Positions 32,471 to 52,235 of a stretch of 64,000 bases of DNA are shown here, in pieces. Source of the DNA: Urechis unicinctus. Taxonomy: Eukaryota; Annelida; Polychaeta; Xenopneusta; Urechidae. A program made the position numbers and the translations under genes. The stretch is from positions 8,513,563 to 8,577,562 of the forward strand of contig CM067348.1 in assembly GCA_034190875.2 (NCBI GenBank), in the 5' to 3' direction. Positions within the stretch are counted from its first letter, which is position 1. Each line of letters opens with the position of its first letter. Below the pieces are notes generated by a model. The model had not been told where the DNA came from, did no database searches, and was given only the letters and a program-made list of their open reading frames with translations.

Positions 32471-34239
32471 CCACACCCCACTCCCACTTCACTACCCCGA
32501 CCACTACCATATCTATCCAACGTCCTTTCCTACCTGGCTAACCACTAAATCACCAAGATGGTCCTCATCTGACTCTACCCAACCCCCTTCACATTGCTCC
32601 ATCAGGGGAACGCTGTCACACCCAGCATCCCACCCCAGCCACCTGTATGCAGACCTCAAGCGCAATTAACCCTGCCGTATGCCTTACCTGTGTGCATTCA
32701 AATGCCCTGAATGCTTCTATTGTCGCCATCTTCTGTTTTCTGTTCTTCAAAGCATAGAGCCCCCGTGCTACTGACAAGACAGCTCGCCCTACACCCTTAA
32801 CGGCCGCATACCTATTCCTTTTTATTCCACTCTTCCAGAAAAAAATGCATAATGCGGTCCTTTCTGTGGAGAGTGTAATCTGCTTACCTGGGGTGGTTCA
32901 CCTTTAGAGAAGTGGCGCAGATCAATGACATACCAAGGCACGAACACGCAAATCTGAGCTTGTCGCCGGTATTGAACTTCCTCGACGGTACCATCCTCCT
33001 AACGCCTCCCCTCCCCCTCGTACCCCCTACCCCACTCACACTCCCCAGACGCTTCTCCGCGAAGGTTGCCTCCGATATTGACAAGCTTGCAGGTTTCATC
33101 CGTTGACGTCCGCGCCTTGGGGGATCGTGGGCGGTCTTTTTTAAACACCTCGTAGACAGACAAAATTATCACGTTTTAACGTTAAGTTTATATCTATTTG
33201 TTCAGGCCTTTGTATAAAGATGATTATAATGTACTTTTACATTGATTTTCAAATAGAAAAAACGACCCGATTTTTCGTTATTGAGCTTTATATGTCAAAA
33301 ATGGTCCGAAACTTACCTTCGTAGATTGATACTTTCCTCGGGGCTTATTAAGTCGAAATAAAGGATTCAAAGATCATCCATAGTGTGTAGTAGGCTCATA
33401 TCTGTCGTTGACAGGTTTTTTTAATTTAAAAAAATGGCTGTCTACGCCTGACACAGTTGGAGTTTGCATCCGCTTGTCCTGTCATAGCCAGATACCCCAT
33501 GTTGCACATCAAAAGTAGGCCTATCAACTTTTTCAAGTTTTTCACTTTTTGTAACAACATAACTCAATGAAAAAGATCTGAGAAAGAGTCAAAGTCATAT
33601 TTGATATATATCAAATAATAAGGCGGCTTAAACATGCATATTTAAAATGTTATTTCATTTTTGCGTATTTCTTAACCCTAGCGGTCCCTTTTGGACGTCG
33701 AGTATATTTTAAAATCCCGATAACGTACTTATCATAGCAATATAAACGTCAGTAATTCAGGGATTTACTCAGTGTCGTCGCCTCATAATCTGGCAGCAGC
33801 AATAACCACGTTTAAATTCCTAAGTGGCTCTCCAGAAAATAAATAGGGTTACGCACTAGGGTTAGCGATTTCATGTAAACCAGATGCAGCAGACTTATCA
33901 TTTAGCTACAATTAGCTAGCTTTTTGAATGCGCAATAAAGCAACAAGTACTAGAATGACACATCCCTTTTAATAAATTTAAAACAAATAATATAATCAGC
34001 ACTTGCTGAATCACAAACGTGCGGATTTTTGTTGTCTGAGTCAACAAAAACAACAGCTTCATGGCTTTTTCGATGTTAATCAAGAAAGGTAGATAGATAG
34101 AAGTAAGTGGGCCTTTTGTTACATTTGTGGTCCTAATGTTATATGCAAATGCATAGACTTAAGATATGCCGCTATGCCATGCCATGGCAAATAATCCCAT
34201 GGCCCATGGAAAGAATAAAAAGACGACAGTGTACTCTCA
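32471..34239. other. Non-coding, A/T-rich towards the right
   Basis: Base composition shifts to A/T-rich at about 33.1 kb. An 18-bp perfect palindrome (ATTTGATATATATCAAAT) lies at 33599-33616. No exon supported. Confidence 0.5.
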
Positions 34240-36775
34240 TGTTGAATGTAGCCACATAGATTTCTTAACAACGGGCTGATTGGGCATGCCAGTATAATCC
34301 CATGCTGAATGTAGCCAGACCTATATACTCTGGGTACTCCCATGCTGAAAGTAGCCACATCTACAAACTCAGGCTACTTTCTACACGCCAGTATACTCCC
34401 ATGCTGAAAGCAGCCACATCTACAAACTCGGCGTACATTGTGCATGCCAGTATACTCCCATGATGAAAGTAGCCAGACCTATATACTCTGGCTACTTCCA
34501 TGCTGAAAGTAGCCACATATATAAACTCAGGCTACTTTCTACACGCCAGTATACTCCCATGCTGAAAGCAGCCACATCTACAAACTCGGCGTACATTGTG
34601 CATGCCAGTATACTCCCATGCTGAAAGTAGCCAGACCTATATACTCTGGCTACTTCCATGCTGAAAGTAGCCACATATATAAACTCAGGCTACTTTGTAC
34701 ACGCAAGTATACTCCCATGCTGAAAGCAGCCACATCTACAAACTCGGCGTACATTGTGCATGCCAGTATACTCCCATGCTGAAAGTAGCCAGACCTATAT
34801 ACTCTGGCTACTCCCATGCTGAAAGTAGCCACATATATAAACTCAGGCTACTTTGTACACGCCAGTATACTCCCATGCTGAAAGTAACCACATCTATAAA
34901 CTCAGGCTACTTTGTGCATACCAGTATACTCCCATGCTTAAAGTAGCCACATCTATAAACTCAGGCGACTTTGTACATCCAGTATACTCCCATGCTGAAA
35001 GTAGCCACATCTTTAAACTCAGGCTACTTTGTACACGCCAGTATACTCCCATGCTTAAAGTAACTACATCTATAAACTCAGGCTACTTTGTACACGCCAG
35101 TATGCTCCCATGTTAAAAGTAGCCATATCTATAAACTCAGCCTACTTTGTACACGCCAGTATACTCCCATGCTGAAAGTAGCCAGACCTATGTATTCTGG
35201 CTACTTTGTGCATACCTGTATAATCCCATGCTGAAAGTAGCCAGATCTATAAACTCAGGCTACTTTGAGCATACCTGGCTACTCCCACGTTCAATGTTGC
35301 CATATCAATATCCTCGGGCTACTCCCATGCTGAAAGTAGCCACATATATAAACTCAGGCTACTTTCTACACGCAAGTATACTCCCATGCTGAAAGTAGCC
35401 ACATCTATAAACTCGCGTACATTGTGCATGCCAGTATACTCCCATGATGAAAGTAGCCAGACCTATAGGCTACTCTGGCTACTTCCATGCTGAAAGTAGC
35501 CACATATATAAACTCAGGCTACTTTCTACACGCCAGTATACTCCCATGCTGAAAGCAGCACATCACATCTACAAACTCGGCGTACATTGTGCATAGCCAG
35601 TATACTCCCATGCTGAAAGTAGTAGCCAGACCTATATACTCTGGCTACTCCCATGCTGAAAGTAGCCACATATATAAACTCAGGCTACTTTCTACACGCA
35701 TACCAGTATACTCCCATGCTGAAAGTAGCCACATCTATAAACTCAGGCTACTTGTGCATGCCAGTATACTCCCATGCTTAAAGTAGCCACATCTATATAC
35801 TCAGGCTACTTTGTACATGTATACTGCTGAAAGTAGCCACATATGCTCCCATAAAAACTCAGGCTACTTTGTACACGCCAGTATACTCCCATGCTGTAAG
35901 CAGCCACATCTATAAACTCGGCTACTTTGTGCATGCCAGTATACTCCCATGTTGAAAGTAGCCAGATATCTATATACTCTGGCTACTTCCATGCTGAAAG
36001 TAGCCACATATATAAACTCAGGCTACTTTCTACACGCCAGTATACTCCCCATGCTGAAAGCAGCCACATCTATAAACTCGGCGTACATTGTGCATGCCAG
36101 TATACTCCCATGCTGAAAGTAGCCAGACCTATATATCTGGCTACTCCCATGCTGAAAGTAGCCACATCTATAAACTCAGGCTACTTTGAGCATACCTGGC
36201 TACTCCACGTTCAATGTACCAATATCCACTCTCGGGCTACTCCCATGCTGAAAGTAGCCACATCTATAAACTCAGGCTACTTTGTGCATACCAGTATACT
36301 CCCATGCTTAAAGTAGCCACATCTATAAACTCAGGCGACTTTGTACATCCAGTATACTCCCATGCTGAAAGTAGCCACATCTTTAAACTCAGGCTACTTT
36401 GTACACGCCAGTATACTCCCATGCTTAAAGTAACTACATCTATAAACTCAGGCTACTTTGTACACGCCAGTATGCTCCCATGTTAAAAGTAGCCATATCT
36501 ATAAACTCAGCCTACTTTGTACACGCCAGTATACTCCCATGCTGAAAGTAGCCAGACCTATGTATTCTGGCTACTTTGTGCATACCTGTATAATCCCATG
36601 CTGAAAGTAGCCAGATCTATAAACTCAGGCTACTTTGAGCATACCTGGCTACTCCCACGTTCAATGTTGCCATATCAATATCCTCGGGCTACTCCCATGC
36701 TGAAAGTAGCCGCATCTATAAACTCAAGCTGCTTTGCGCATACCAATATTGCTCCTGTGCTGAAAGTAGCTTCCA
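34240..36775. repeat. Satellite array, about 59-bp unit, 2.5 kb
   Basis: About 40 copies around CAGTATACTCCCATGCTGAA / AGTAGCCACATCTATAAACT / CAGGCTACTTTGTACACGC. Each unit holds the inverted pair AAAGTAGCC and GGCTACTTT, 15 bases apart. The blocks 34888-35341 and 36258-36711 are near-identical, 1,370 bp apart. The many short open frames across it are artefacts. Confidence 0.93.
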
Positions 36776-36930
36776 GCATCAAGTTCATAACAATGGGTTA
36801 TTAAAAGATGTTTATTCTTGAGTAAAATATCAACATGGAGCAATTACAAGCACAACTGTGAAATAGGTCTCTGTGCGGAGCGTGCCCAATGAAAGTTTTC
36901 TGAAACATATACACATGTAAAATGAAATCT

Positions 36931-36965
36931 GAGTATATAGATGTGGCTACTTTCAACATGAGTAC
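36931..36965 (-). repeat. Single inverted copy of the satellite unit
   Basis: GAGTATATAGATGTGGCTAC then TTTCAACATGAGTA is the reverse complement of part of the 59-bp satellite unit, directly outside the left inverted repeat of the small element. Confidence 0.6.
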
Positions 36966-37224
36966 GTCACATGCAGAAAGTTTAAGGGGCGAATACTAGC
37001 ATACACACACTTTAATATTTCTATTCATATGATCACAGTAAATGCGCTCTGGAGCTCGGCTCACTCTCGCTACTTTATGCGTGGCGCAGCTCTGATCCTC
37101 TCCGCTCTTGTGCTATGCTACTTTCTGCATAGCGCTACTTTCTGCGGAAAGTATCCGAGGATTTTGCGCATGCGCAGTGCGGCCTTTCGCTACTTTGTGC
37201 ATGAAGCTACTTTCTGCATGTGAC
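36966..37224. mobile_element. Small inverted-repeat element next to the satellite
   Basis: GTCACATGCAGAAAGT at 36966-36981 is exactly inverted at 37209-37224. The interior has several GCTACTTTCTGCAT-like boxes and an NRF1-type TGCGCATGCGCA at 37165-37176. It shares GCTACTTT with the satellite. About 259 bp, no open frame of note. Confidence 0.55.
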
Positions 37225-37905
37225 ACCGATTAGCAGGGCTACCCGCGTCAGTTATTCTTGCTCAAATAAATCTTAGTTAGCAGACCAAAGTTGTCAGTCC
37301 TGCAACCTGAATCATAACTTTTAGTTTCTCCCGTTAAAAAATTTATTCGTAAGAAAGATGAATTTCTGTGACATTTAGATCTATTACCATTGTAGCCAGT
37401 AAATAATATGCATAAAAAGTGGTGTTTAAAATGTGTGATACATTGTGTCACATTTATACACTATGTAGAGAATTTTTGAAAGCTGTGTGCATCATATGTG
37501 CAGTGTTACAAATACTTATAATTGCATTATAATCAGAGGGAGTATATTATGTCTTAAGTTAAACATGACTTTTAACTTTTCCCAAAATGGAATTGTGGAG
37601 CTATGGCATGCATAGACTAACTGACGCATACATCTCACAAACAACATGAATAGGTTCTGATGACACATGCTCTGATTTCTTTAATGAATGCAGACTAATC
37701 TTTTGTTCAAGAATTATATCTAGGTCAATTAAAACAATTTGAATATGTTGCTATTATTTTATCATGAGTACAGAAGATAAAGTACTTATTGTTTGTGTGC
37801 AACTGTGTAATCAGTGTCTTGGTTATTTATAAAAAAAAATTCATAATAGCCATGAGGTCCATAAATTATGAACACATAAAACAACTATAATCACTGATGA
37901 TAAGC

Positions 37906-37911
37906 TTTATT
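37906..37911 (-). promoter_or_regulatory. Candidate polyadenylation signal
   Basis: AATAAA on the minus strand, about 630 nt after the stop codon of the recombinase-like gene, in an A/T-rich 3' flank. It is the first canonical hexamer I noticed downstream. Transcript ends are needed to confirm it. Confidence 0.3.
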
Positions 37912-38039
37912 TGTGAGGCATTGTGATAAGAATTACACACAGTGAAACTTTAAATATGTGCTGTAATATATGAAATCTCTCCTCTCAGAGCTACAAGTCT
38001 AATAACTCAAATATACCACCTATCACACTGCAGATCATT

Positions 38040-38365
38040 TACATCATCACAGAGGAACCTGATATTGGTATTGCACTCTTTATGAAAACTCATATTTAGA
38101 AACTTCACATGTATTACAACATATCTCAGTGGTAGCTAAATTCAGAAATAAAACCCTTAGCCTTACAAATTAAGATTACCTGAATAAAACTAACTATGCA
38201 GCTGCATCTGATACTGGCATATAACTGTAAACCAGAACTCCTATTTAGAAACTTCACGCTTTATCACACAGCTGTGTCAGTGAAAGGAAAATTCAGAAAT
38301 ACAACCGCATTACAAATTAAGATTACCTGAATACAACTTACTAAACAGTTGCATCTGAGTTGGTA
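38040..38365. repeat. Two-copy direct repeat, about 149-bp period, in the 3' flank
   Basis: TTTAGAAACTTCAC recurs at about 38094 and 38243, followed in both copies by TTCAGAAATA, ACAAATTAAGATTACCTGAA and a GCATCTGA block in the same order. The copies are diverged, so this is an old tandem duplication inside the likely 3' untranslated region. Confidence 0.6.
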
Positions 38366-38541
38366 TTCTACAATTTACCAAGTTGAGGTTGATGTACGGC
38401 TACTTAGACAAAGTTATCAAAGTGACTTCAAATTGCTGCCAACCATTTCACCATACCCTGGCAGCCCAAACATTTGCCAACAACTAAACAAAGTAAAACA
38501 ACAACAAATACATTTTTTCTGAAGTGTGTAACAGAAAATAA

Positions 38542-38781
38542 TTATTTCTGTTCCCTTGGATTGAATTTCCGTAATATGTCCCTAATGCGCCGAAACCTGA
38601 TCTTGTCTGGAGTGTCAGGGTATTTTAAATTGAGGTAGTGTCTGAAGGTCTTATCAGACGTCATTTCTTCAATGTCCTTCAAAGTATTCCCAGTTACACC
38701 AACATCCCTAGCTGTGGTGACCAGATACAATATTTCTTCATCAGAAAGCTTGGCTCGGGGCATACTCGGTTTGACACTTTC
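38542..38781 (-). CDS. C-terminal exon 19 with unrecognised basic domain
   Basis: The acceptor TTACACAG at 38783-38782 is phase 0 and gives 79 residues before TAA at 38544-38542. The core (PRAKLSDEEILYLVTTARDV, GNTLKDIEEMTSDKTFRHYL, then KYPDTPDKIRFRRIRDILRK) has the mixed charge and helical periodicity of a small globular domain with a basic last helix. I do not recognise it; a Myb-like or nucleic-acid-binding helical fold is only a guess. It is not part of a canonical tyrosine recombinase and would have to be added to, or kept with, the gene. Confidence 0.7.
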   Translation of the reverse strand, partial: ESVKPSMPRAKLSDEEILYLVTTARDVGVTGNTLKDIEEMTSDKTFRHYLNLKYPDTPDKIRFRRIRDILRKFNPREQK

Positions 38782-41700
38782 CTGTGTAACATAATAAATG
38801 GGAGGTTGAATAATCATATGCAAAGACTTTTGATTTTGGTTGGAGTTTAATGTCCACTCAATATATACATGTGTTATTTGGAGTAAATTATAAGCAAAAG
38901 TTTTACAAATGACTGAATTTAGTCACTAGGAAAGCTTACCAAGAAACAGTCCTCTGTGCTGTCGTCAGTATGGTCAGAGTGAACATCCTCCTCCTCCTCA
39001 CACACGGGTCTATCAGTGTTTGCTGACTGACGGGGTGAAGGACAGTCATTTGTTGCTTCTTATATTAGCAATAACACAATCATATAAATATTTCAACGCT
39101 CAGCCACAATAAATATGTTATTCAGTTACTGCATCTCAAATGCCTATGTTATCAATAAAATATTGCACAAGTGATTTTGCATATATTTTGCATGTTAATC
39201 TTTTGTATGAATAAGGCCAGTACACCAAAAAATATGCGATACAACTTGTCGCTGCACTGTTATATGGAATGCCTGTTATTGTTGGAATACTAAACACACC
39301 TTTGCTGCTGGATGAAGCACCAATCTTGATTTTTTTGATGTCATATCCAGGCACTTCTAAACAGCCAAAAATGTTAACAGCTGGTAATAATTTGTTCAAG
39401 ACAACATAACTACAAATAAACCTAGAATAATTACATACCAAACTCAACATCGTTTAAGTCTTCCTCGTCCACTGCTGACTCAGTGAGTATCTTCTTTAAA
39501 ATTGATGATATGCGGACATTTTTCAATGTTGCCGTGCACTTGTTGTAGGTCTGCTGTTGCACTGTTGAACTGTGCATCATGAAAGATGCCAAGTCATTTC
39601 TGTCCCTCTCGGTCAGCAGACCAGACACTAAAGTGGCTGCCATGTGTCTGAGTTTGGTCATGGTAATTCTGAGTGGTACACAAAGAGGGCAGAAACCCAC
39701 CACATCAAATAACTCCCCTGCATGTGACAATATTTCTAGTTAGCTCACACAATATAAACTTCATCATCAAAAATTACTGTAAATTATGCGATAAACATGA
39801 TGCAAACCTCTTCTCAACTCCTGCATGCCCTATTTCGGTTGTCAGTGCCCCTGCAACAGCACCACTGTCTAGCTGTGTTCCATTCCATGTTACGAACAGA
39901 AATGGGGAGTCGGTAGTGACTCTGTAAGAAGCAATATATGTCTGAACATCTTCAAACAATTTGTTGTCCATTACCACATCAGCTGGACCATATGTGTGGG
40001 ATGTTTTGTGATCCAAAACTTCAACAACATAATGGCCGTTTCTCTGACTGGCTTTGTGGAATTCCTCCAGCCTCAAGTTGATGATACAACCAGTGCGGTG
40101 GCAATTGGCTAGGGCAACACGCATCATCAGAAAGTTGCGCACTGAGGTGTGGTTGCCGTTACTTTTTAGTTCTGTCGATTTGCACAACTTTGCTGCTGAT
40201 TTGGCTCTTGTACTTGTCATATATGCCATTATGTCATCAGGGTTTATCATAGAACTGGCATCTCTTGGGCGCTGCTTGTCCTTTTTAAGCAATGACTTCA
40301 ACCATGTGCCTAGTCCAGCTTCAAATACTTTGAGCTGAGCACAGTTATAATTGTAATGTCCAGTGGAACACACCATGATCAAATATTTCATAAATAATTT
40401 AAGAGAATTCAGATATGTCCTCGCCGTGTTTGGCAGCCACTCCCCACATCCCAGCTTGGCCTCTATCAGATCTGCAATAGGCTGGTACGCATCGTCGATG
40501 GGAACATTAACATGCCTCAGAAGATATGACACTTGAAGCGAGTGTTTCTCAGCCTGGGATGGTCTGAGAGTTCCTCCTCGAAAACTCTTCAAATATGCCT
40601 TGAAATGAGCTAGTTCTTTTCCTAGATAGCAAAAGACACATGTATATATATTATAAGTTCCCTGATGACATATTACTGTATTACCTCGCTCACAAGCCCA
40701 TACTTGATCATAAACCCACCCCACTTTGAGAAATTCGCAATTTTGTCATTTTTCGCCCCCTGCCTGTCAGACATCTTCTGTCCCTGGCCTAAGCTACTTC
40801 TTTATCCACTCTATGCTTACATTAAGAAGCATGACCTACTTCTCACCATACTCTGTTATCGCGCTTGTTGTGAAGCTATAAAAAATAGCTCGGCATAGAT
40901 ACACTGCAGGATGTTTTCATGCCTCTGAATTGTTTTTTAAACTAATGAACCTACAGTCTGTAAGTCTGATAGCAATTTAATACCAGCAGGGAAAAGATAT
41001 GATTGGCACAAACACAATGTTCATTTATTAAGTCGACAAATACGGAAGCAATGTCACCATATGACATCAGAATTAAGCTCATCCCCCCTTTTTGGTAAAA
41101 TTCTAGCTCAAAACTATGGGCTTGTGAGCAATATAATATGGTAGTCACAGATAAAATGTTTCCCATGCAAATGAACATTATTGCTCACCATATCATCACA
41201 TGTGTGGGTTTTCTCATAACTTGATTGAAGTTCCCTACTACTCAATTTAGCTGCTGTGTCAGAACTTGATGCTGTTGTTGACGTGTCTAAGAAGCAATCG
41301 GTATTGTCATATTGACAACCCTTCTGTTAAAACAAAACAAATATAATGATAAGCAACAGGGTGGATAATTCACTAGTTCTATGTTTTTCATTGACATTAA
41401 TAAGCAGTATGAAAAACAAACCTGCACAACATTTTATACATGCACTAAGCAAATAAATGGAACATATTTTAAGAGGTACAGTCACTATAGGTTACAGTAA
41501 GTAGCCTCTTCAAACCTCAGAGTATGATGCTGTAACTGTTGTTGATGATGTTGATGGTCTCACTGATGTATTAGAAATTTGACTGCTTTTGTCATGCAAA
41601 AGGCTTTCCTGCTAAAAGAAGAAAGCCACTGGAATATAATGATATGTGACACAGGTATATCATGTGTTATGATTTGTGTATTATTTACATCTACAAGATG

Positions 41701-44700
41701 GTATCAAGATAACAAACATGCACCTTGTATTTACATAATCACATGAAAAGCACATCTGTTTGGAGGTACAGTGATTCACAACTTAAGAATTTTTACAATA
41801 AAAAATCATTATTTCCTCAAACCTCAGAGCAAGATGCGGTTACTGTTGTAGATGGTGGTCGCGCTGAGATTTGATCACTACTGTAACACTGACAGCTCTT
41901 CTGTTAAAGCAAAAAAGCACCTTTAATTTAATAATAAACAAGAACAATACAATACAAGTTTTGATAACAATAACACATGGTGCAGAAAATAATTGTATTC
42001 TACATCGCTGTGCATATTATTACATATAAGTGGTTCTCATCTTTGCATCTTTTCTGTCAAATTAAAGTGTGTGCATGCAAAGGGTTTCTGTTGCAAGGGG
42101 TAATTTATTATTGCAAGTCTTTTCAGCCAACGCGTTCTGGCAAGGCGTTATCTAAGAGCGGGTCAAAGCATCTACTTCAACACCAACCAATCATATTTTG
42201 CATTAAATTTAACGACCATCTTAAAATAATACAAAACCAAAACAATATATAATTCAATGCCAAGATTCTTAAATTCTACAAGCACTATATTACCTTAAGG
42301 TTCTTATATGTGTCGTCATCTTTGGACAAACCATGCTTATTTCTGAGATGGTGATCGATGCGGACCACCACAGAATCACACAGTGGACACACTTTGAGAC
42401 GTCTCTTAGTCTGCATTTTTAAAATTTAAATAACCAATCAATTCATCATTTAAAGTTGACAAAATTAACATGTGGGACCTGAGTTGATGCTTCATGTATG
42501 TTCCCTGACCGGAACTAATCTGGGAAACAACCAAAGGAAATGGCCGATGACGTTTATGCATGGCTCATTGTAACTTGTTCTCGTTCTTATACATACATAT
42601 GAGAGATCAAGTGAAGCAGGAAGATCCAAAGATCAATCTCTCTGATAAATAGTCATGGAGCCATGTTAAGGCTAACAGCATGAAAGTTGGCAGCCCTCAA
42701 TTTCTTGCCACAGCTCTGTTTTACTGTCGCCGTGGGCTGTCGAAAGTGACAGCTCGGTACGTCTTTTATTCATCACTACAAACATCCGAATCTTCATCAA
42801 TACTTTGACACACAAGCGTTCTCATGCAACTGCAGCCTATACTTATTTGTTGTCACTATATTCTGCTCCACTGAAGATAAACGAGTGATTAACATTGTTT
42901 ACAAACGCAATATCCGCAATCGTGAACGCCAACTCGAAACCAATAGTTCCTATATTTGCGTGTAATTGGATAAAACTAGCTCTAATGATGAATATTTATA
43001 ATATTAAGTATACCCCACTATCTGGGTCAAAGTTTAGCGATGTCATGCACATAAAATTCGATTTGCTAGAAACGTCACCGGTCAGAGGTCACTGTTAAAA
43101 GTCTGCGCCCCGGGATGCATAGATATTTCTCCCGGTCAGAGGTACAGGATGCATTAATGCAACTTGCGCCGTGAAAGGGTATACAAATTAACTAAAATTT
43201 TCATTATTCACACAAAGAAGTATATAGATAGTAACCATTAAATAATGAACATGAACTCATCAATAACTTATCAATATCAACAAGATCAAATTCATAACAT
43301 CTGACATTAAAATACCAGCTAAAGCAAATAAAATCAAGGAGCTGTTGCTTACTTTACTGGATCGTTGCTTGTAGCTCTCTTCCACAAGGCGAGGCATGAT
43401 ATTAATATTGCGATACCTCCCAGAAAAACTCCCATGCATCTGACCAAATGTCTATTCAAATTAATCACTGCCTTTTTACACTTCAGACAGGTCTTCTTTT
43501 TGTTTTTGGCAGAAGTCTTGAGCGTCGGATCGCAGGCTTGGGTCACATTCAGTTTCCTGTTGTGAGAGATATCGCATGGTTCATGTTGGGTGGATATCAC
43601 ACCTTCCACAATATGATATGCATGCTTTATAGTTACACCATATGATGCTGTGAATATTTGTATAATATCTAAAACATTATAAGACTGACCTTTTTGGGGG
43701 TGGTGTTGGGACTTTGTTGGCTTCATTAGGCTCCATCAATGACCCAGACTCACTGCTATAACGAAATATCCAAAACATAAGATTGTAGAACAACAGCAAG
43801 GACAATATACTTAAATTTTTGGGATATTCTACACCAGGTACTTACCTGCTTAGATAATCTATATCAGAAACACTTAGCATGTATTCATCGTCACTAGGAT
43901 TGTCACTTTCAGCATCCTCCTCGATAGCTATATCACACAAAATGTATGGTAAGTATAATACAAAAGATACTGGGTACTTCATGCATAACATTTACATTGT
44001 ATGAATACCAACTGGACAGAAATTCTTTTTTCTTTTGGAAATAAGACTTGCTTTGTTTCATGGTTATAATGCCACTGTGGTGAATTAAATGTGAAATATA
44101 AAGGGTTGAATGTTGCTTCTGCCCTCTCTATTGCTCGTTCACAAGCCCTTACTCGGTCATAAACCCATCCCTTTCTTTGAGGGAAACTTGATTGAACATG
44201 CACTTGGTCACCCTGCTTAGTGTACTTGTTTAAATGTTACAATACACAAGAAGGCCTGCTTTTCTCAGTAATGTATTATAGACGCGTGACCTTCTAAAAG
44301 TGATACTTTGTTCACCGTGAAAATCTTTGGTAAGTGCCAGTCCAATGAACTCAGCCCATCCGCCAACTTTTTGGGAAAATTCCAGCTAAAAAACTATGGG
44401 CTTGTGAGAAAGGTAATACAGAATATGGCAAAGATATCAGGTGATATCACAACAGATGATGATAAGATGAATTGGCAAGCATATTGCTGCTACTGGCCAC
44501 ATGACAACGTCAGTGCAGCAGGGTGGTGTCAAACTCAGAACCCAGAGGCTCCTAAGCGCACACACTAACCACCGAGTCACTCGGGCGCCCCTACTTTGTT
44601 GTTTAACATGATTTGGTAACTATAATGTAATATTAGCCCAAACAACAAAATAATAGCAGTAAATGCAAAGTCACTATTAAAAAGCAAGGTAATGAACATG

Positions 44701-46967
44701 ATAAAATGGTGTTAAGACACAAACAGTCCAACAAATGCACAATGTGAGATTAATATCTAACTGTCAAATGCCAATAATTAAGATTCATACCATCACCATC
44801 CACTGCTGATCTTCGTTTCTGACAAGTACAATATCATTTTTAGTTTCATTATTTGATGATTAATAAGAAATCTGACTGAGTATAAACAAACTTAAGAACA
44901 CATAAAGAGAGAGACCACACCAGATTGTTGTTAACAAGCCCACTGTATTTTGTTAACAAGTTTTGGTAGCCACTATTCTCCTGTAACACAAAAGCAGTGC
45001 TCTGTCATCATTTGAATCATGATGCTCATGTTTATTAGGAGCAGGTAGCTCTGGGAATTTACCTTGTGTTTTGTAGGTGTTGGTGGTATGATATCATCAT
45101 CAGCACTATCCATATCATTATAATCTGAAGATAAAAGTTTATCTGAAAGCAAATCCAGTATAAATAACCACAAAATCATAATGCTGTAAAAATGACTCAC
45201 ATAGGCTTCATCCAACAACATTACCACGCCCCAACAAAGGACAAGGAGCACAAATTTATTTGTCAAAACTTTCAAATATTTATTTACCTTCCTCCTGAGA
45301 ATCAGTGCACTTGGTTGCCTGTGGTAGCTCATCAGTTTGCATCTCTGTCGTTAGAGATACTTCAACAAGTGGCTCAGAAACCTGGAACTCTGTGCCTGTA
45401 ATTATAAAAACAGCGCACTAGTATTTTTGCAATATAGCAACCTCATTTCAGAGTCAGTTTAAATGTAAATATCCAAGAAAATGTCTTACCATCTTGCTGA
45501 GAAGTACTAGCGTTATGTGGTTGATCAAGTGGCATCTTTTCAGGCTCCATCTGTGTCATAAGAGATCCTTCATTCCTTGGCCCTGATGCCCGACAGGCTG
45601 TGGTAAATATAAAAATCATGCTGTTGTGATTATTTGGAGGCATAAAACTTAAGAAGTTGGTTAACTCTCTGAAAACAGGTATATCTAAAACAATTGCTAT
45701 TAACTGTACCATATACTGGACTTTCCTTCAATGTCACTGCCCTTGATATATCCTCAAGATACGTGTTAAAGTAACTGGGCAATTTCTTCTTTACCAAAGC
45801 TGTAACAGCACACAATAGGGTTATAACTTATTGATGCACATTAACTGGTTATTTTCAACAAAACAAATTGTAACTTAATGGACTAAAAGATATAATGCAT
45901 TGCCTTGCTCACAAACCCAGGGCTTTTCATAAAAAAATTGAGAATGAGCTGCACTACACTACTGCTATTTTAGCCAGGGATGGGTGAGGCCTGACTGGGG
46001 CAATGCTGGTCACCCGCCTTATCAGCAGCACTAATGTCAAACAAAGTTAATTTATTTCAAATATGGGGATGGGTTTATGGCCAAGTATAGGCTTGTGAGC
46101 AAGGAGATACAGTAGTTACGACAAAATGGGAATCAGTTGTTTACAACTCTTTATATCAAAATAATACATACCTTTGCCCTTTTCCAAATATGGATCTTCT
46201 GCATCAAATTCTCTGATGTTGCTAGGCAGGACATCAATCCTATTCAAATCCAAAATGTAACATGTAAAAAAAATGAAATTTATCTTTGTGTGTGTGAATG
46301 AGTTGTATTCAAAAATTAACATTTTTGCATTGCCATGATTAATAAAAACCGTGATGCATTTCCGCAGCAAACTGTCTATACGAATAGCTATGGTAGTCTC
46401 AATGTAGTCTGATAATGAAAGCTTACATGAAACAGCAAGGCTAAATTTTCCATAATGGGGGTGTGAGCTGTTGCATGGATAATTCTGAAAATCACTCACG
46501 CATCTGGCTCGTTCCAGAATTTGCACTGTGTTAGATGATTCCTTTCTAAAGAAGTCTGCCCAACTACAAATCCAGGCCACCATACCCTGGGTCTTTTAAG
46601 GCACACAAGTACTGCTGTTCCTACTGCAAAAATACATAACAGTAGAATCAATTGAATTTAATCTTATACACCAAGCATGCATTCATCTCCAATATTTCAA
46701 GTGGTATCCAGTCAAAAGTTTATTCCTAAAATAGCTCATGACACTAATATTGCTAACTTATATTCTGACATTAATCGACAGAATAATGCATAAATATCAC
46801 TTTGAGAGTTTTATTAACAAATTAATGAATACAGTGTGGGACCACTCCAGTTGGCTCTTGTTCACTGCAGTTGATGGGTCCATACCGTAGAAATTGAATG
46901 TTTCATCAGCTTGTGAAACATTAGCAGCCGGAACAGACTTTTTCATTTTTCTTTTCCCCATTTTCAT
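38542..46967 (-). CDS. PWWP - zinc finger - tyrosine recombinase-like protein (multi-exon gene model)
   Basis: I built this model from splice sites and phase. Coding exons, in transcript order: 46967-46886, 46623-46500, 46239-46172, 45799-45710, 45597-45490, 45395-45288, 45124-45063, 44818-44791, 43927-43846, 43752-43690, 43556-43353, 42410-42294, 41900-41823, 41608-41516, 41323-41189, 40621-39808, 39668-39439, 39058-38940, 38781-38542. The first ten coding joins keep frame perfectly. The product is about 948 residues: basic N-terminus, PWWP domain, duplicated linkers, two zinc fingers, Ser/Thr-rich repeats, tyrosine-recombinase domain, acidic linker, unknown C-terminal domain. PWWP domains bind methylated histone tails and DNA, and tyrosine recombinases cut and join DNA, so a nuclear chromatin role is inferred. 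Exon 11 carries an apparent 1-nt frameshift and the 41189/40621 join is out of phase. It may be a domesticated Crypton-like recombinase, or an element that captured PWWP. Gene structure is well supported; function is not known. Confidence 0.82.
38940..39058 (-). CDS. Acidic linker exon 18
   Basis: The 119-nt exon joins phase 1 to phase 0 and reads EATNDCPSPRQSANTDRPVC, then four Glu and a run of Asp, Ser and Thr (DVHSDHTDDSTEDCFL), with donor GTAAGC. It is open in only this frame, which matches both neighbours. The sequence is acidic and likely disordered, a spacer between the recombinase domain and the C-terminal domain. The acceptor's pyrimidine tract is weak. Confidence 0.62.
39439..39668 (-). 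CDS. Tyrosine recombinase active-site exon 17
   Basis: A pyrimidine-rich acceptor (CTGCCCTCTTTGTGTACCAC then TCAG) joins in phase to give EKRITMTKLRHMAATLVSG. The RH pair fits box II of tyrosine recombinases, but the usual His three residues before the Arg is Thr. Further on, DLASFMMHSSTVQQQTYNK gives the box III His and, nine residues later, the Tyr that would be the nucleophile. The end is acidic (SAVDEEDLNDVEF) and stops at a GTATGT donor, phase 1. Arg, Lys, Arg, His and Tyr are therefore all kept and only one position differs, so catalysis is possible but unproven. Confidence 0.78.
39808..40621 (-). CDS. Tyrosine recombinase-like domain, main exon 16
   Basis: The 814-nt exon begins after CTATCTAG and stays open to an AGAG/GTTTGC donor. 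The first part (KELAHFKAYLKSFRGGTLRP and the helices after it) fits an N-terminal core-binding domain. The catalytic half holds NCHRTGCIINLRLEEF, whose Arg fits the first catalytic Arg of tyrosine recombinases. VLDHKTSHTYGPA follows, with the hairpin Lys, and then SPFLFVTWNGTQL, a common strand before the second box. The family cuts DNA through a covalent 3'-phosphotyrosine. The exon's open frame continues further upstream, but that part reads into a MITE and is not coding. Similarity to Cryptons is my recollection of the family, not a search result. Confidence 0.78.
40681..41134. mobile_element. MITE copy A, GCTCACAAGCCCATA inverted ends
   Basis: The left end reads TCGCTCACAAGCCCATACTT and the right end is the inverse, AAACTATGGGCTTGTGAGCA. 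There is no coding capacity. It fills most of the intron before the main recombinase exon. Related ends occur at 44130-44414 and 45900-46105, so this is a small non-autonomous DNA transposon family. Confidence 0.65.
41189..41900 (-). CDS. Three paralogous Ser/Thr-rich exons 13-15
   Basis: Exons 41900-41823 (78 nt), 41608-41516 (93 nt) and 41323-41189 (135 nt) are all phase 0-0. They start alike (KSCQCYSSD, ESLLHDKSS, KGCQYDNTD), and the first two end in near-identical STTVTASCSE and STTVTASYSE; the third has DTSTTASSSD in its middle and then a longer tail. They look like tandem exon duplicates, and their symmetric phases would allow skipping. All have clean TTTTAACAG- or TTTTAGCAG-like acceptors. 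The peptide is low complexity and has no recognised domain. The third exon's donor (ATG then GTGAGC) is phase 0, whereas the next exon needs phase 1. Confidence 0.66.
42294..42410 (-). CDS. C2H2-type zinc-finger exon 12
   Basis: A 117-nt phase 0-0 exon encodes KVCPLCDSVVVRIDHHLRNK followed by HGL. That gives a Cys-x2-Cys pair, then two candidate His ligands spaced as in BED- or C2H2-like fingers. The RxDxHL and KHxL pattern is what I associate with N-terminal fingers of Crypton-like recombinase proteins in marine animals. The exon ends TYKNLK at a GTAATA donor. With the preceding C2HC finger it forms a two-finger DNA-binding module before the recombinase domain. Confidence 0.72.
43353..43556 (-). 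CDS. C2HC zinc-finger exon 11, with apparent frameshift
   Basis: The acceptor at 43557 joins in frame to give KRKLNVTQACDPTL, a lysine stretch, and then the finger CLKCKKAVINLNRHLVRC, with ligands Cys295, Cys298, His308 and Cys312. After the finger the frame runs towards a stop. The +2 frame, however, reads NINIMPRLVEESYKQRSSK to a good donor (AAA then GTAAGC, 43353/43352) that is phase 0, as the next finger exon requires. The exon is one base short of closing. A sixth T in the run at about 43425-43429 would restore frame. The alternative is a 38-nt GT..AG intron from 43416 to 43379. A short-read check of the T-run would decide. Confidence 0.66.
43690..45124 (-). CDS. Acidic and basic linker, exons 7-10
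   Basis: Four small exons join in frame: 45124-45063 (62 nt), 44818-44791 (28 nt), 43927-43846 (82 nt) and 43752-43690 (63 nt). They encode acidic clusters (MDSADDDII, IEEDAESD, SDIDYLSSESG) broken by proline and basic patches (PPTPTKHKKRR and VPTPPPKRK). The 28-nt exon is a microexon whose KRRSAVDGD completes the first basic patch. The two proline-threonine-lysine patches resemble each other and could be nuclear localisation signals. Introns here hold a MITE copy and a tRNA-derived SINE. The region is likely disordered. Confidence 0.7.
44130..44414. mobile_element. MITE copy B, same family
   Basis: The left end TTCACAAGCCCTTACTCGGT and the right end AAACTATGGGCTTGTGAG match copy A. The subterminal CATAAACCCATCCC is shared with copies A and C. 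It is shorter than A and intronic. Confidence 0.6.
44430..44591 (-). mobile_element. tRNA-derived SINE
   Basis: On the minus strand the element starts GGGGCGCCCGAGTGACTC and runs through an A-box-like TGACTCGGTGG to a B-box-like GTTTGACACC at 44534-44525. The tRNA-like head is about 73 nt (44591-44519), followed by an unrelated body. The acceptor stem is not intact enough for a functional tRNA. The 3' boundary and target duplication are not clear. It sits just after MITE copy B in an intron. Confidence 0.6.
45288..45597 (-). CDS. Duplicated linker exons 5 and 6
   Basis: Exons 45597-45490 and 45395-45288 are both exactly 108 nt, both phase 1 at each end, and encode similar peptides. One contains SLMTQMEPEKMPLDQP and ends TSQQD; the other contains SLTTEMQTDELPQATK and ends SQEED. 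This is direct evidence of a tandem exon duplication. The phase symmetry means either exon can be skipped or duplicated without breaking the frame. The sequence is acidic, rich in Thr, Gln and Met, and probably unstructured. No known domain is recognised. Donors are GTAAGA and GTAAAT. Confidence 0.72.
45710..46623 (-). CDS. PWWP domain, exons 2-4
   Basis: Three exons (46623-46500, 46239-46172, 45799-45710) join in frame, phases 1-2, 2-1 and 1-1. They encode the PWWP fold at about residues 28-120. The start GTAVLVCLKRPRVWWPGFVV matches the first strands and the signature Pro-Trp-Trp-Pro turn, here VWWP. CKFWNEPDA corresponds to the usual strand with an FF or FW pair. IDVLPSNIREFD fits the 'v..pe.l..f' strand, and GKALVKKKLPSYFNTYL fits the closing basic helix. 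In other PWWP proteins the aromatic cage reads methyl-lysine on histone H3 and a basic face binds DNA; whether the cage is complete here needs a structural alignment. A PWWP module is typical of host chromatin proteins and, to my knowledge, not of Crypton-type recombinases. Confidence 0.8.
45900..46105. mobile_element. MITE copy C, same family
   Basis: The left end CTTGCTCACAAACCCAGG and the right end TATAGGCTTGTGAGCAAGG are inverted. The right subterminal GGGATGGGTTTATGGCCAAG is the inverse of the left arm of copies A and B. About 205 bp, in the intron between exons 3 and 4. Confidence 0.6.
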
Positions 46968-46968
46968 G
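46886..46968 (-). CDS. First coding exon: start codon and basic N-terminus
   Basis: A strong acceptor (a T-run followed by CTGCAG) precedes one untranslated base and then ATG at 46967-46965. The reading starts MKMGKRKMKKSVPAA, a lysine-rich segment that could be a nuclear localisation signal, and ends in NFY at a GTATGG donor in phase 1. I chose this ATG because it is the first in the exon, the frame joins exactly to the PWWP exon, and no upstream coding is needed. The acceptor implies a further 5' untranslated exon, which I could not find. Upstream lies a long microsatellite and then transposons, so the promoter is probably further away, above about 50 kb or beyond the window's repeats. Confidence 0.75.
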
Positions 46969-47087
46969 CTGCAGGAAAAAAGTTATCAACAGAATACAAA
47001 AATTATGCCTAGTTCAGTGTCATTTTTGAAAGCGCATGTGAACATGTTTGATTTAAAAACATCACTCTGCCATAAAATTATGCCTAG

Positions 47088-47090
<3 letters not shown>

Positions 47091-47166
<76 letters not shown>

Positions 47167-47356
47167 ATGTATGTATGTATGTATGTATGTATGTATGTAT
47201 GTATGTATGTATGTATGTATGTATGTATGTGTATGCATATATGCATGTATGTGTGTATATATGTATGTGTGTGTGTGTGAATGTGTGTGTGTGTATGTGT
47301 GTATGTATGTATGTATATATTTGTGTATGTATGTATATATGTATGTATTGTGTGTG

Positions 47357-47388
<32 letters not shown>

Positions 47389-47805
47389 TGTGTATTATGT
47401 GTATGTATGTATGTATGTATGTATGTATGTATGTATGTATGTATGTATGTATGTATGTATGTATGTATGTATGTGTATGTATGTATGTATGTATGTATGT
47501 ATGTGTGTATGTATGTATGTGTATGTATGTATGTATGTATGTATGTATGTATGTATGTATGTATGTGTATGTATGTGTATGTATGTATGTATGTATGTAT
47601 GTATGTGAATCTGCGTGTGTGTATGTATGTGTGTATGTATGTATGTATGTATGTATGTATGTATGTATGTATGTATGTATGTATGTATGTATGTATGTAT
47701 GTATGTATGTATGTATGTATGTATGTTTGTATGTGGGTGTGAATGTGTGTGTATGTATGTATGTATTTATATATGTATGTATTTATATATGTATGTATGT
47801 ATATA
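47091..47805. repeat. (GT)n and (GTAT)n microsatellite
   Basis: About 60 bp of pure GT, then about 650 bp of GTAT with GTGT and TATA interruptions. Long Cys/Val/Tyr or Tyr/Ile/His open frames on either strand are artefacts. Confidence 0.97.
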
Positions 47806-49341
47806 CAGGGGTAGACACTAACGGCTGTCCGCTTGCCCGGAACAGGTGGTTCTGTTTGTGGGACAAGTGAAAAGTCCCAAGTACTTGTCCGACCGGACAT
47901 GTTCATTACTTCGCCAATCACGAGTGTTATCTCGAGCAAATACTGAAGCCTTGAAGACTGAGGTTTCAGCGTCTTTCAATGTGCAGCCGAGCGTGTAAGA
48001 CAGAATAATCAGTAACCGTACAGCCAGTTTCGTGTGTGTGAAGTTCTTTCACTGCTAGTAATGAAGACTCACTCGGTCATGTACAGTTTAACCGCAAGTT
48101 GCTTTATTCTACCAGTACCCGATGAATCGAAAACAGAGGCACTTGTTATGTGTCGTAGTATGCATTGTCTCGATAACTAGCTAGCGTCATGACAGTGATG
48201 TAAGCTTGTTGCAGGTGGTGCGTGACACGTTTATAACGCGCTATTGATTTAACACAATATATGCGCGTTGTGACGTTGGCGCGGTACGCACCGCGCTACG
48301 ATGACAGAGCGTGCGAGCCAACACGTTGTGTTTTGGTGGACTGTTGTACAACCAATGTTTGATGGCGCAACAGACACAAAATATATATAAAGGGCCAATA
48401 TGACCTCAGCTGATAAATTCAACTGCTATGACCAACTATGGAATGAAGCCACGAATATCTTGCAAGGTGGGGCATATGGCCTTATCCCGGATTGGGGTGT
48501 GCCGCGGGACCTCGAAATCCCGTACCCGTCGTACAAGGTGAAAATGGCATAGCCCGTCATACAAGGTATTATGCGAATGTATAACCCATCGTACAAGTAG
48601 AAAATGGCAAAAAAGCATACCCCGTCGTACAAGGTATTATGGAAATGTATAACCCACCGTACGACGTAGGCAGGATAAGTGTCAGAAAAATCTCAAAATC
48701 TGATCAGGTGATTTCTGATTACATTCAGTAACAACCTTGTGCGCTTGCACGGTCGAGCGTGTGATTCTCAGCGCGTCACACAGGGACCATTCATTTCATT
48801 TGCATTGTCAATGATCGGTGGGAAATCCCGAAAGAAAATCTCGACATACTGAAACAAAACATATTTTAAACCCGCTGTACAGATAGGAAGAGAAAAACAT
48901 ACCTCGTCAAACAAAACCAAGCCCCCCAAAAAACCTGTTGTACAGATTGCAGCTGGAAAAAAACCCGTAGTATAAGTACGAGGCCCGACAAAACCCGTCG
49001 TACAAGTCAAGAGGCTGAAAAAACATACCCCATCGCGCGACACATGTATACTACCTCTATACACTTAAGTGCCCCCCTACCATTTAATATTTTTGAAAAC
49101 CTGTTTTCATTAAGCTGTAAAGAAATTGTAAAGGTACATAACATGTAATGATTGGAGTATAAATAATTTTAATGCAATTAACTTTTTACCTAAGAGATTG
49201 TTACTTATATCAATAACAACAACCATACCCTGTGAACTTCCATGTCTTATGGGACAAGTAGGTTTCACATTGGACAAGTACAAATTGCCATTCACTTGTC
49301 ATACAGGACAAGTGAATGCTGGAAGTTAGTGTCTACCCCTG
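47806..49341. mobile_element. Non-autonomous DNA transposon with 17-bp inverted ends
   Basis: CAGGGGTAGACACTAAC at 47806-47822 is exactly inverted at 49325-49341. Inside each end are repeated GGACAAGT / ACTTGTCC boxes, possible transposase-binding sites. The middle holds a degenerate repeat around TTGTACGACGGGT. There is no transposase-like frame. CAGGG-type ends suggest hAT, but the target duplication is hidden in TA-rich flanks. Confidence 0.7.
48480..49035 (-). repeat. Degenerate repeat around CTTGTACGACGGGT
   Basis: On the minus strand CTTGTACGACGGG-like boxes (with AT, GT and TG variants) recur at least ten times with uneven spacing and a TTTTTGCC or TTTTGTC-like tail. It lies inside the TIR element and is probably a decayed array. 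Confidence 0.55.
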
Positions 49342-49351
49342 ATATATATGC

Positions 49352-50302
49352 CAGGGCTCTCGCTAGCCAAAAATTATCAAGGGTCCAGGACCCTCAGGTT
49401 AAAATTCGCAAGGGTCCCCAACACATTTCGGGGGTCCACAAGAAACTCGAGGTTCCGAATAGATGTTTATTGATAACTGAACACAACACCACAAACGCCT
49501 TTGTACAAACATTACATGCATATTAATTCGTTTGTCAGCAATAGAGTTAATAGCTGCTTACTGACAGTCAAAGTCCTGAACAGCTGGACCCTCAATCTTG
49601 ATGCGCATCAGTATCTCCAGCACTCTTTCTGACAACGAAGCACTTTTGCAAGATTCTGTGATATTTGTATGGAGAAGTTCATGAAGCAGCTCAGAATAAA
49701 ATCTCGCCACAAACTCGACGCTACATGAAACGCGCGATCGCCCTTTGATGTCCTTTCACCGAGTTTGGCTAACACAGCGCTGCCATGGTAACAAACTAAC
49801 TGGGTGAAGTTCAGTTGGTAAAACACGCCAAGAAAATGCATATCTCTTCCCAATAGAACATCTTTTGCCAGATAATGTCAATACTCTGAAACCAAACCAT
49901 CTCGTCACTATCATCTAGACCAATGATTGGCTTACATTCGCCGAGTAAAGAAGCGCAACACCCGTACAATGTAGCGCATTTCTTGGCGAGAAAAGCTGAT
50001 GCCACCGCGTTGACTTGGTGGGCACAGAGTTAGCTTATCAGCGTGCTCTATTTATTCAAACAAGTCAGGAGACGTTTAGTTGGTAGTTTCAACTTGCACT
50101 CGTCAGTCGGGCGACGACTTTCGAGTTTTCATTTCACCCGCAGGCGGGCCAATTAACGATCTCGCGAATTTTGTAGCTTTGCGTAATGGATGCACGGCAT
50201 CACAAATCTCGCTCGTCCACGGGACCCGCAGGCTGTATTGACGCAGGTCCACTGTAAGAATTGCGGGTCAGGGACCCGGAACCTCGGTTCCCGAGAGCCC
50301 TG
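49352..50302. mobile_element. Non-autonomous transposon with CAGGGCTCTCG ends
   Basis: CAGGGCTCTCG at the left is inverted at the right as CGAGAGCCCTG (11 bp exact). The flanks are TATATG-rich on both sides. Interior open frames are short and I recognise none as a transposase. hAT-like by its ends. Confidence 0.6.
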
Positions 50303-50425
50303 TATATGTATGCTTGCCTGCATGTTAGTTTGTATATATGTATGTGTATGTTTGTATGTATATATGTATGTATGTGTTGGTGTATGTTTGTATGCATGTT
50401 TGTATGTCTGTCTGTCAATCTGTAT
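50303..50425. repeat. Continuation of the TATG-type microsatellite
   Basis: A GTAT / GTTTGTATG-rich stretch that looks like the displaced remainder of the tract at 47.1-47.8 kb, split by transposon insertion. Confidence 0.6.
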
Positions 50426-51150
50426 CAGGGGTGGAAACTATCTATTTCAGCTACTGGCCTCCCGAGCCGGTAGATGAAAAAAGTTACCGGCCCGCCTATG
50501 AACCTACCAGCCCAAAAAATACGAAAGAACTAACTGCTCCCTGAGTGTCAAATTTATTCAAACATAAATGCATATACAGAACAAAAACACCAATATGGGG
50601 AAAAAACTGTAACCTCAGTAAATAGAAGACAGGTGGTCACATAATTTGAAAAAAAAACTGCTCATACAAAAACCTAAATAAACAAATCACAGATTAGAGG
50701 TCCTTTAGCTTCTCCCTGTAGGCAAGTTCTTGGAGCCTTTCAAGAGCGACACACACAGTTAAAGTGTCATCTTCCTCACCATCACTCTCCTCATCAGTGT
50801 CTCCTTTCCCCTCCATGAACATGACTTACTTCTTCATGGGGCCACCGTTACTCAACGGTTCACTATGGGTCATAGCTATCAATGTGGTGATACGGTCATT
50901 TAGGTCTGTTGTATTGAGGCTGAAGTGTCAGTCACTCTTGATAAGCCCCGTTGAGCTGAAACCACGCTCACATTCTGCAGCAGAGGTAGTAAAAGTTAGG
51001 AGAAGATCCACCAAAAGGAAGAGGTTCACACATTCTTCACCATATAGACTGTTCATGTGGAGTCAGCTGTTCATGGCCATGTGAACGTCTATGTTCTTTG
51101 ATGCTTTCGAGCTTGAAATGTCCAGTGCCCTTGTAAAAACCGCAAACTAA
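50426..51150 (-). mobile_element. Partial hAT transposon, one terminus visible
   Basis: The end CAGGGGTGGAAACT at 50426 is a hAT-type terminus. A hAT transposase remnant lies inside with its C-terminus towards this end. I could not find the opposite inverted end, so the right boundary is arbitrary. Confidence 0.5.
50830..51140 (-). pseudogene. Broken hAT transposase C-terminal (dimerisation) region
   Basis: The minus-strand reading gives FTRALDISSSKASKNID, then an in-frame stop, NSLYGEECVNLFLLVDLLL, TFTTSAAECERGFSSTGLIK, a second in-frame stop and DLNDRITTLIAM. The SAAECERGFS block is the signature of the hAT C-terminal dimerisation domain, which holds transposase dimers together. The RNase-H-like catalytic part is not seen. 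With two internal stops and no start it is a dead remnant. Confidence 0.75.
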
Positions 51151-51749
51151 ACCGATGTTGATATCGCTGAGTGAAATTAATCCAATACACATTGATTGTT
51201 TTCACTGCGCTGCGCGTTGCCAGGGTCGCCGGGAATTCTGGGTGGTGCGAGGTTCCCGGATAACCGAGATCGGCAATTTATAAACACTGTACACTGCATA
51301 TCTTTTCTAAACACTATCTATATCCACTATACCCAGTGCACCTTGTCATCATTCACTACATACACATTACATAGATTGTATATCTTTTCAACAATCAGCT
51401 ACGCGAATACTGCATGAAGTTTGGCGGGAGAAAGTTGGGATTTCACCTATTATCGCTCTTCGTATCGATTAACGGGTTGCTTACTTCCACATAGTTTTTA
51501 AGAAAATGCCAGAAGTTCTGCGAAATTTATTTCAAAAGTCGATGTTGTTATCATTATGGAGATACAACCTTACCAACTGCTCAGCTTTTATAGACAAAGG
51601 TCTAAACACAACAACGTACGTTGACGCCAAGCGTAGCACGCCGCGATCTAATGGTAAACCGCCTGGTGCTGTAGGGATCATTTTGTATTCGTTACTCAGG
51701 AACGGTCCCAGGGAGCCTACATTTCTTCAATGTATCTACCATGTGTTCG
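51151..51749. other. Non-coding or transposon-derived spacer
   Basis: A 104-codon plus-strand frame at 51506-51820 begins in normal-looking sequence but runs into the AAAGGACCA cluster. Not recognised. Confidence 0.4.
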
Positions 51750-51955
51750 CACCCTCGATCAAGAAATGTAAAATACAGAAAAGGACCACTGGTTTGAAAA
51801 AGGACCACCAAAATAACTGAAAAGGACCGCAATGGCGCTTTCTTGACATTTAAATGTTTGAGAAGGACCACTCAAGTGTATAAAGGACCACTGAGGTCGT
51901 TTTCATAAAATTTTAGCAAAAAAAAGGACCAAAAACGTAAGGAAAGGACCCACCC
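51750..51955. repeat. Cluster of AAAGGACCA motifs
   Basis: AAAGGACC occurs seven times in about 200 bp with irregular spacing (for example AAAAGGACCACTGG, AAAGGACCACTGAG), ending directly at the (ATCT)n tract. It may be the end of an interspersed repeat with a microsatellite tail. Confidence 0.45.
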
Positions 51956-51958
51956 ATA

Positions 51959-52235
<277 letters not shown>

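Follow-up and report, generated by a model that had tools for sequence, protein, structure and literature searches.

A probable Crypton-like recombinase transposon with a 20-exon gene and GATA/GATG flanks in the genome of Urechis unicinctus

The 64,000-nucleotide stretch of the annelid Urechis unicinctus analysed here (assembly GCA_034190875.2, contig CM067348.1, positions 8,513,563 to 8,577,562 of the forward strand; below, the window) carries a gene of 20 exons (E1 to E20) on its minus strand, which encodes, in order, a PWWP-like domain (E2-E4), a C2HC finger (E11), a C2H2 finger (E12) and a tyrosine recombinase (E16-E17), separated by acidic and low-complexity linkers. We consider it very probable that this gene, the only one recognised there, belongs to a DNA element of 18.8 kb which is mobilised by tyrosine recombination and resides in GATA/GATG microsatellites. 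The element spans 33,122-51,962 in the window (18,841 bases) and, judged by its sequence, is best read as a Crypton-like recombinase transposon that is rich in introns and probably encodes a chromatin reader. Its copy in the window is frame-shifted and lacks the final bases of the right end. An initial annotation of this DNA had offered two readings: an intron-rich host gene in which a histone or DNA reader guides an integrase-like enzyme, and an element that uses its PWWP domain to choose integration sites. Copy number, shared ends and microsatellite flanks contradict the first. The second fits as far as a mobile multicopy element is concerned, whereas site choice directed by PWWP remains a proposal.

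Results

A dispersed family of related copies

A six-frame search of the assembly from which the window comes (1,190,315,542 bases, 926 contigs) with the recombinase (348 amino acids) gave at least 153 match rows (E<=0.01) spread over many contigs, where one copy yields several rows and 116 of 233 candidates were scored. Amino acid identities of these matches cluster at ~90-99%, 72%, 50% and lower. Copies on C9 and C2 are 92-99% and about 97% identical to the window, respectively, over gene, introns and flanks; C5:20.6M and C11:62.4M differ at 0 of 1041 nucleotides, and the window and C1:13.8M at 0 of the 738 compared. Silent differences exceed amino-acid-changing ones in close pairs: replacement and silent divergence (dN/dS) were 0.011/0.063 for the window and C9, 0.019/0.096 for L008/L015 and 0.017/0.117 for L022/L028, three close pairs separated by 23-39 differences. 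In comparisons between subfamilies dS reaches saturation. Diverged recombinase matches are numerous on contig C16, by eye the most of any contig among the matches listed.

In the window and 72% families, the PWWP-like exons, the fingers and the recombinase are carried as one unit. A genome search with E1-E4 (121 amino acids) returned 96 match rows, and at 22 of the 26 loci that cover the WWP motif, window included, a listed recombinase follows on the same strand at less than 20 kb downstream. For this count 25 of the 26 rows were paired with 38 recombinase positions taken from the matches listed; the weakest row (C9:31.9M, E 0.005, 36%) was counted as being without a listed recombinase nearby, and one recombinase is counted for two of the 22 rows. 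The 72% subfamily retains E1-E6 and E9-E11, but E7-E8 partially. Two of its copies (L049, L050) hold window-type E1-E11 and then a further set, in which a different C2HC exon, the second, precedes the C2H2 finger; elements of this subfamily look mosaic, perhaps by exchange between subfamilies.

Element ends

The initial annotation had set the feature at 38,542-46,967, a span that holds the coding exons, but the element itself reaches from 33.1 to 52.0 kb. Its ends, the adjoining array and its internal repeats are as follows.

51781..51962, minus strand: left end, starting GATGTATGGGTGGGTCC, with GGTCCTT iterons (shuffles, copy comparison)
33122..33321, minus strand: right end (...GACCGCCCACGATCC), lacking 7 terminal bases that other copies have (copy comparison)
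51959..52082, minus strand: (GATA)n microsatellite adjoining the left end, 30 perfect units (target flank)
47092..47802: (TGTA)n array inside the element
34279..36693: minisatellite with a 59-bp period inside the element, 3' of the gene

The word GTGGTCCTT occurs four times in the window, all at the left end, against 0.46 expected, and four were reached in 0 of 100 shuffles. The left ends of C2:10.9M and C8:8.15M have a layout like that of the window. C2:66.0M aligns with the window between 51,807 and 33,122, and the homology of three copies to the window (C2:66.0M and two 72% copies) ends at the same base, 33,122. Beyond this base, the two 72% copies continue with ATTCACA and then (GATA)n, and C2:66.0M with ATTCACAGATA and then other DNA. 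Terminal repeats, both inverted and long direct ones, are absent from the element: the 600-bp ends of the three copies compared share no match above 14 nucleotides in either orientation. In copies of the 50% family it is the 3' side of the gene that bears the iteron end; end and flank are of the same kind and the gene is reversed. C2:66.0M also contains an extra 3 kb (65,997,454-66,000,453; L054, L037) relative to window positions 51,134-51,139, and the 6-base overlap at the joint suggests a further insertion with target duplication.

Microsatellite flanks

The right-end word ACGATCCATTCACAGATA is present 16 times in the genome and its reversed control 0 times. After these 16 right ends follow runs of 38, 13, 1, 25, 43, 1, 19, 20, 3, 45, 28, 14, 2, 27, 40 and 1 GATA units, that is, at least five in 11 of 16. 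Before the left ends stand 30 (window), 51, 33, 1, 28 and 24 units, hence 24-51 in five of six. The iteron ends of the 50% family adjoin (CATC)n in three of four copies. An array on one side is seen in C9:8.8M (left) and C11:8.75M (right), and arrays on both sides in a single orientation in C2:10.9M, C8:8.14M and C15:27.7M. These one-sided arrays, and the two-sided arrays in one orientation, agree with an insertion of the copies into pre-existing GATA arrays, which we favour. GATA is present at both element ends, mostly inside arrays, and the recombination core is not readable there. By eye and among the matches listed, ten of the 16 right ends lie 6-7 kb past a recombinase and six have none nearby (C7:6.24M, C8:68.5M, C11:58.1M, C13:12.6M, C14:12.9M and C16:18.3M; L063, L064, L068, L069, L070 and L072); these six may be gene-less derivatives.

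Tetranucleotide arrays adjoin some mollusc mobile elements, and the Urechis element could be mobile while the GATA arrays are parts of its own ends instead of its target. Arrays do stand at most of the ends read, but their presence on one side in some copies, the single orientation of two-sided arrays in others and a size that varies from 1 to 51 units make this explanation improbable.

The same ends and flanks bear on the possibility that a domesticated intron-rich host gene was later spread by segmental duplication. Although its twenty exons with conserved splice borders and the predominance of silent over replacement differences are what such a gene would show, the at least 153 recombinase match rows on many contigs, the near-identity of copies within subfamilies, the ends common to copies with unlike flanks and the GATA arrays flanking them speak against it. 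We rejected the host gene because of copy number and shared ends, and give it very little credence.

Gene model

The gene model, running from 46,967 to 38,542 on the minus strand with GT-AG borders, was built by reading the region in three frames. It bears out the initial annotation as to the reality of the exons and the order of the domains. E1, E5 to E10, E13, E14 and E18 to E20 rest on the exon model and the close copies; all exons lie on the minus strand.

46886..46967, minus strand: E1, first coding exon (ATG)
46500..46623, minus strand: E2, PWWP-like domain with VWWPGF (exon model, Pfam, genome search)
46172..46239, minus strand: E3, PWWP-like domain (exon model, 72% subfamily)
45710..45799, minus strand: E4, expected C-terminal helices of the PWWP-like domain (100% amino acid identity in the 72% subfamily)
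45490..45597, minus strand: E5, linker
45288..45395, minus strand: E6, linker
45063..45142, minus strand: E7, acidic linker
44791..44818, minus strand: E8, short exon
43846..43927, minus strand: E9, acidic linker
43690..43755, minus strand: E10, linker
43354..43556, minus strand: E11, C2HC finger CLKCKKAVINLNRHLVRC; window copy frame-shifted past the finger (exon model, other copies)
42294..42410, minus strand: E12, C2H2 finger CPLCDSVVVRIDHHLRNKH (exon model, other copies)
41823..41900, minus strand: E13, linker
41516..41608, minus strand: E14, linker resembling E13
41189..41323, minus strand: E15, linker; its ATG/GTGAG end suits the relatives, a weaker donor at 41221 the frame of the window copy
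39808..40621, minus strand: E16, N-terminal part and first half of the recombinase domain (R and K catalytic columns)
39439..39668, minus strand: E17, second half of the recombinase domain (TKLRH, H, Y)
39300..39356, minus strand: E18, C-terminal region
38940..39058, minus strand: E19, acidic C-terminal region
38542..38781, minus strand: E20, last coding exon with stop

That the exons splice in frame, as had been claimed, holds within E1-E11 and within E12-E20, each of which is consistent in phase, but not at the E11/E12 and E15/E16 junctions. In the window copy the E11 finger frame cannot reach E12 via the strong donor at 43,353, and the E15-E16 join needs the weakest donor of the whole model. 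All 20 exons were found, with AG/GT borders kept, in the close copies C9:13.49M and C2:66.0M. Compared with the window, C9:13.49M has small indels in E1, E11 (two donor-region bases lost) and E16, and C2:66.0M in E11 and E16, including one that disrupts the recombinase frame of C2. In both close copies a T run in E11 and an A run where E16 begins differ in length from those of the window; with the run lengths of the relatives, the E11 frame continues in the C2 copy and E16 opens with EKELAHFK in both. Six finger exons at four loci (C2:66.0M, C2:10.9M, C8:8.14M and C5:20.6M), the 50%-identical family among them, continue in one frame to the donor; the finger of the C9 copy gave no match to the motif searched. 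Since finger exons of other copies run in frame, the domain layout is real in the family; in the window, either the copy carries frame shifts or the run lengths are errors of the assembly.

The neighbouring exons E13 and E14 encode similar short peptides, TTVTAS(C/Y)SE, apparently by exon duplication. A dispersed repeat with inverted ends CTCACAAGCCCATA / TATGGGCTTGTGAG occurs in three introns (40674-41143, 44134-44421 and 45893-46114) and looks like a family of miniature inverted-repeat transposable elements inserted into the element. No tRNA was found, and an Rfam scan returned no family at gathering score.

Recombinase domain

The proposed tyrosine recombinase is confirmed by domain searches. 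Spliced E12-E20 matches PF00589 with E=1e-5 and 25.8 bits (cut-off 27.1), the ~50%-identical relative passes the cut-off with 29.1 bits and the 72% relative has 23.7 bits; E values across the three subfamilies range from 4.7e-5 to 1e-6, with one of the three above the cut-off. NCBIfam XerA scored 31.4 bits (E 1.3e-7; its cut-off of 220 was not reached) and XerA was also the best match in a PDB sequence search (E 0.04-0.05). No DUF3504 family was found in Pfam scans at E<=1. A set of 5.8 billion proteins, which seems to be without animal proteins, held no homologue of E12-E20 at E<=10 among 7992 scored candidates. A structure model of E16 only had a mean predicted local distance difference test score of 38.8 and was not used.

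Catalytic columns were read in 30 loci (L005-L034), omitting loci uncovered at a column. R is conserved in 28/28, K in 26/26, R in 27/27, H in 27/27 and H in 28/29 loci, and the catalytic Y in 27/29, the remainder being one stop and one F. The column which we take to be HisII, the H of the R-H-R-Y tetrad, is T in 27/27 readable loci, which leaves the tetrad incomplete and would be a family trait. Because T replaces H in the second catalytic box, recombinase activity does not appear assured.

PWWP-like domain and zinc fingers

PWWP (PF00855) was the sole Pfam family returned for the N-terminal domain at E<=1, with 13.3-16.0 bits and E 0.12-0.018. The best score (16.0 bits, E 0.018) came from a trimmed piece of 89 residues and covers profile positions 3-79 of 93 with VWWPGF/VWWPGFVV aligned; longer pieces scored 13.3-14.3. 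Asked of PWWP as one family named beforehand, out of 24,736, the best score would correspond to about 7e-7 by our own arithmetic, but it lies under the family's own cut-off. The domain is kept in the 72% subfamily, with 93-95% amino acid identity in E2 and 100% in E4. The PWWP domain of the initial annotation has the WWP motif and the barrel pattern, both aligned to the profile, in its favour but stays below the cut-off of 25.6, and we regard it as probable on sequence grounds. Another small barrel would account for the sub-threshold score and for a PDB sequence search in which the N-terminus found no PWWP chain and SH3 domains were among the weak matches (E 0.3-1). It accounts less well for PWWP being alone at E<=1 and for a match over most of the profile, and we consider it unlikely, though a serious competitor. 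The C2HC and C2H2 fingers are visible only as C-x2-C...H...C/H motifs; the motifs stand as annotated, but Pfam gave no finger family above its cut-off.

Discussion

We propose that the 20-exon protein would use its two zinc fingers and the core-binding part of the recombinase to bind the left-end GGTCCTT iterons and perhaps also GATA arrays. The recombinase would cut via its tyrosine and excise the element, probably in the circular form that has been proposed for Cryptons (PMC3212892). A (GATA)n array would then receive the excised element by recombination. Sequence choice would come from the fingers or the core-binding part, and chromatin choice from the PWWP-like domain, which would tether the enzyme to nucleosomes with a preferred mark. 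We infer all of these steps, from iteron binding and excision to GATA insertion and PWWP tethering. A target at the sequence level, (GATA)n/(GATG)n, could also be recognised by the fingers or the recombinase alone. That one protein unites nucleosome reading by PWWP, iteron recognition and GATA/GATG insertion, so that a histone mark guides the element to a safe haven of tandem repeats, is a tentative idea against which we would lean slightly.

Several observations weigh against the reading as a mobile recombinase element with a chromatin reader. The first left-end stretch of C2:66.0M is replaced by AT-rich, partly GATA-like DNA, and two further stretches sought for left ends (C12, C4) held none. 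The right-end search word itself contains one GATA unit, 5 of the 16 right ends are followed by just 1-3 units, and no empty site was seen among the loci read. The frames of the window copy break at E11 and E16, and C2:66.0M has its own break in E16. Pairs with few differences give scattered dN/dS, for example 0.0037/0.0043, near 1, in L010/L011. To these are added the T at the HisII position, the PWWP score below cut-off and the finding that the E1-E4 genome search, with upstream stretches read in part, gave no PWWP match near the 50% family.

Could the recombinase stem from an endogenous large DNA virus, nimavirus-like and repeat-inserting, of which the window is a remnant? Two whispoviruses have multi-exon recombinase genes (PMC10871703). 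However, the unit is bounded at 18.8 kb, and a Pfam scan of ten open reading frames (ORFs), eight of which lie at 33-52 kb, gave no family above cut-off; the best were TMEM238 (E 0.0022) and IBV_3A (a viral name, E 0.029), two matches far under their cut-offs that fall in a single ORF. A close-relative search of viral contigs with E16 found five stretches that matched a pattern and no relative, and the large protein set held no relative either, although neither set need hold such viruses. We regard a viral origin as very remote, marginally more so than the host gene.

The recombinase transposon can be compared with several known systems. Animal Cryptons carry the recombinase as the single recognisable domain and have no C-terminal domain (Kojima and Jurka 2011, PMC3212892). 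Like CryptonA and CryptonI, the Urechis element has a tyrosine recombinase as the only enzyme recognised and no terminal repeats, and non-autonomous copies, described for Cryptons (PMC3212892), are suspected in the Urechis family (6/16 right ends). Unlike the Cryptons described, it has a PWWP-like domain, two fingers, 20 exons and a length of 18.8 kb. Its recombinase also differs from theirs in having no DUF3504 match (E<=1) and T for the H of R-H-R-Y. Because DUF3504 is not matched and R-H-R-Y is incomplete, we file the element as a variant of tyrosine-recombinase transposon that would work like a Crypton, and not as a Crypton.

The nearest functional parallel that we found in print is the C2H2 recombinase of crustacean nimaviruses, which insert into (TAACC)n telomere repeats (Kawato et al. 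2023, PMC10871703). Both systems combine a C2H2 domain with a recombinase, insert (in Urechis probably) into tandem short repeats and have multi-exon genes, in the nimaviral case in related viruses; key residues are partly kept in both, with five of seven located in the nimaviral enzymes and one catalytic column replaced in Urechis (PMC10871703). The nimaviral recombinases differ in residing in virus genomes and in their target (TAACC)n, and no PWWP appears in the consulted passages (PMC10871703). Crypton-derived host genes (KCTD1, KIAA1958, ZMYM2/3/4, QRICH1, WOC) resemble the Urechis gene in having a recombinase-derived domain within a larger multi-domain protein. According to PMC3212892, they have lost the catalytic tyrosine and the second arginine, whereas the Urechis family is multicopy and keeps both residues at almost all loci read.

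A fusion of reader and enzyme is also known from chromoviruses, where a chromodomain, a histone reader, is joined to the integrase of a mobile element. The fusion as such is alike; enzyme, reader and element type differ. Our searches of open-access literature found no description of the Urechis layout: 'PWWP domain' and Crypton were not found together, PWWP and tyrosine recombinase occurred together only on another subject, and PWWP with transposase and transposon-encoded led to Dnmt3c only.

Little is known of tyrosine-recombinase transposons in animals. A family that combines a gene of many exons with a built-in reader domain and a tandem-repeat target would illustrate how these elements acquire site and chromatin preference, and would be a natural case of insertion into non-genic repeats. 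It parallels the repeat niche of crustacean nimaviruses as outlined in PMC10871703, with no viral genes seen so far among the ten ORFs scanned. If the proposal for the PWWP-like domain is true, a recombinase transposon would use short tandem repeats as a safe haven that it locates via a histone mark.

Outside the element, the window contains many minisatellites, at 1299-1999, 12386-13184, 25862-27216, 27761-28470, 29222-30220 and 59136-60023.
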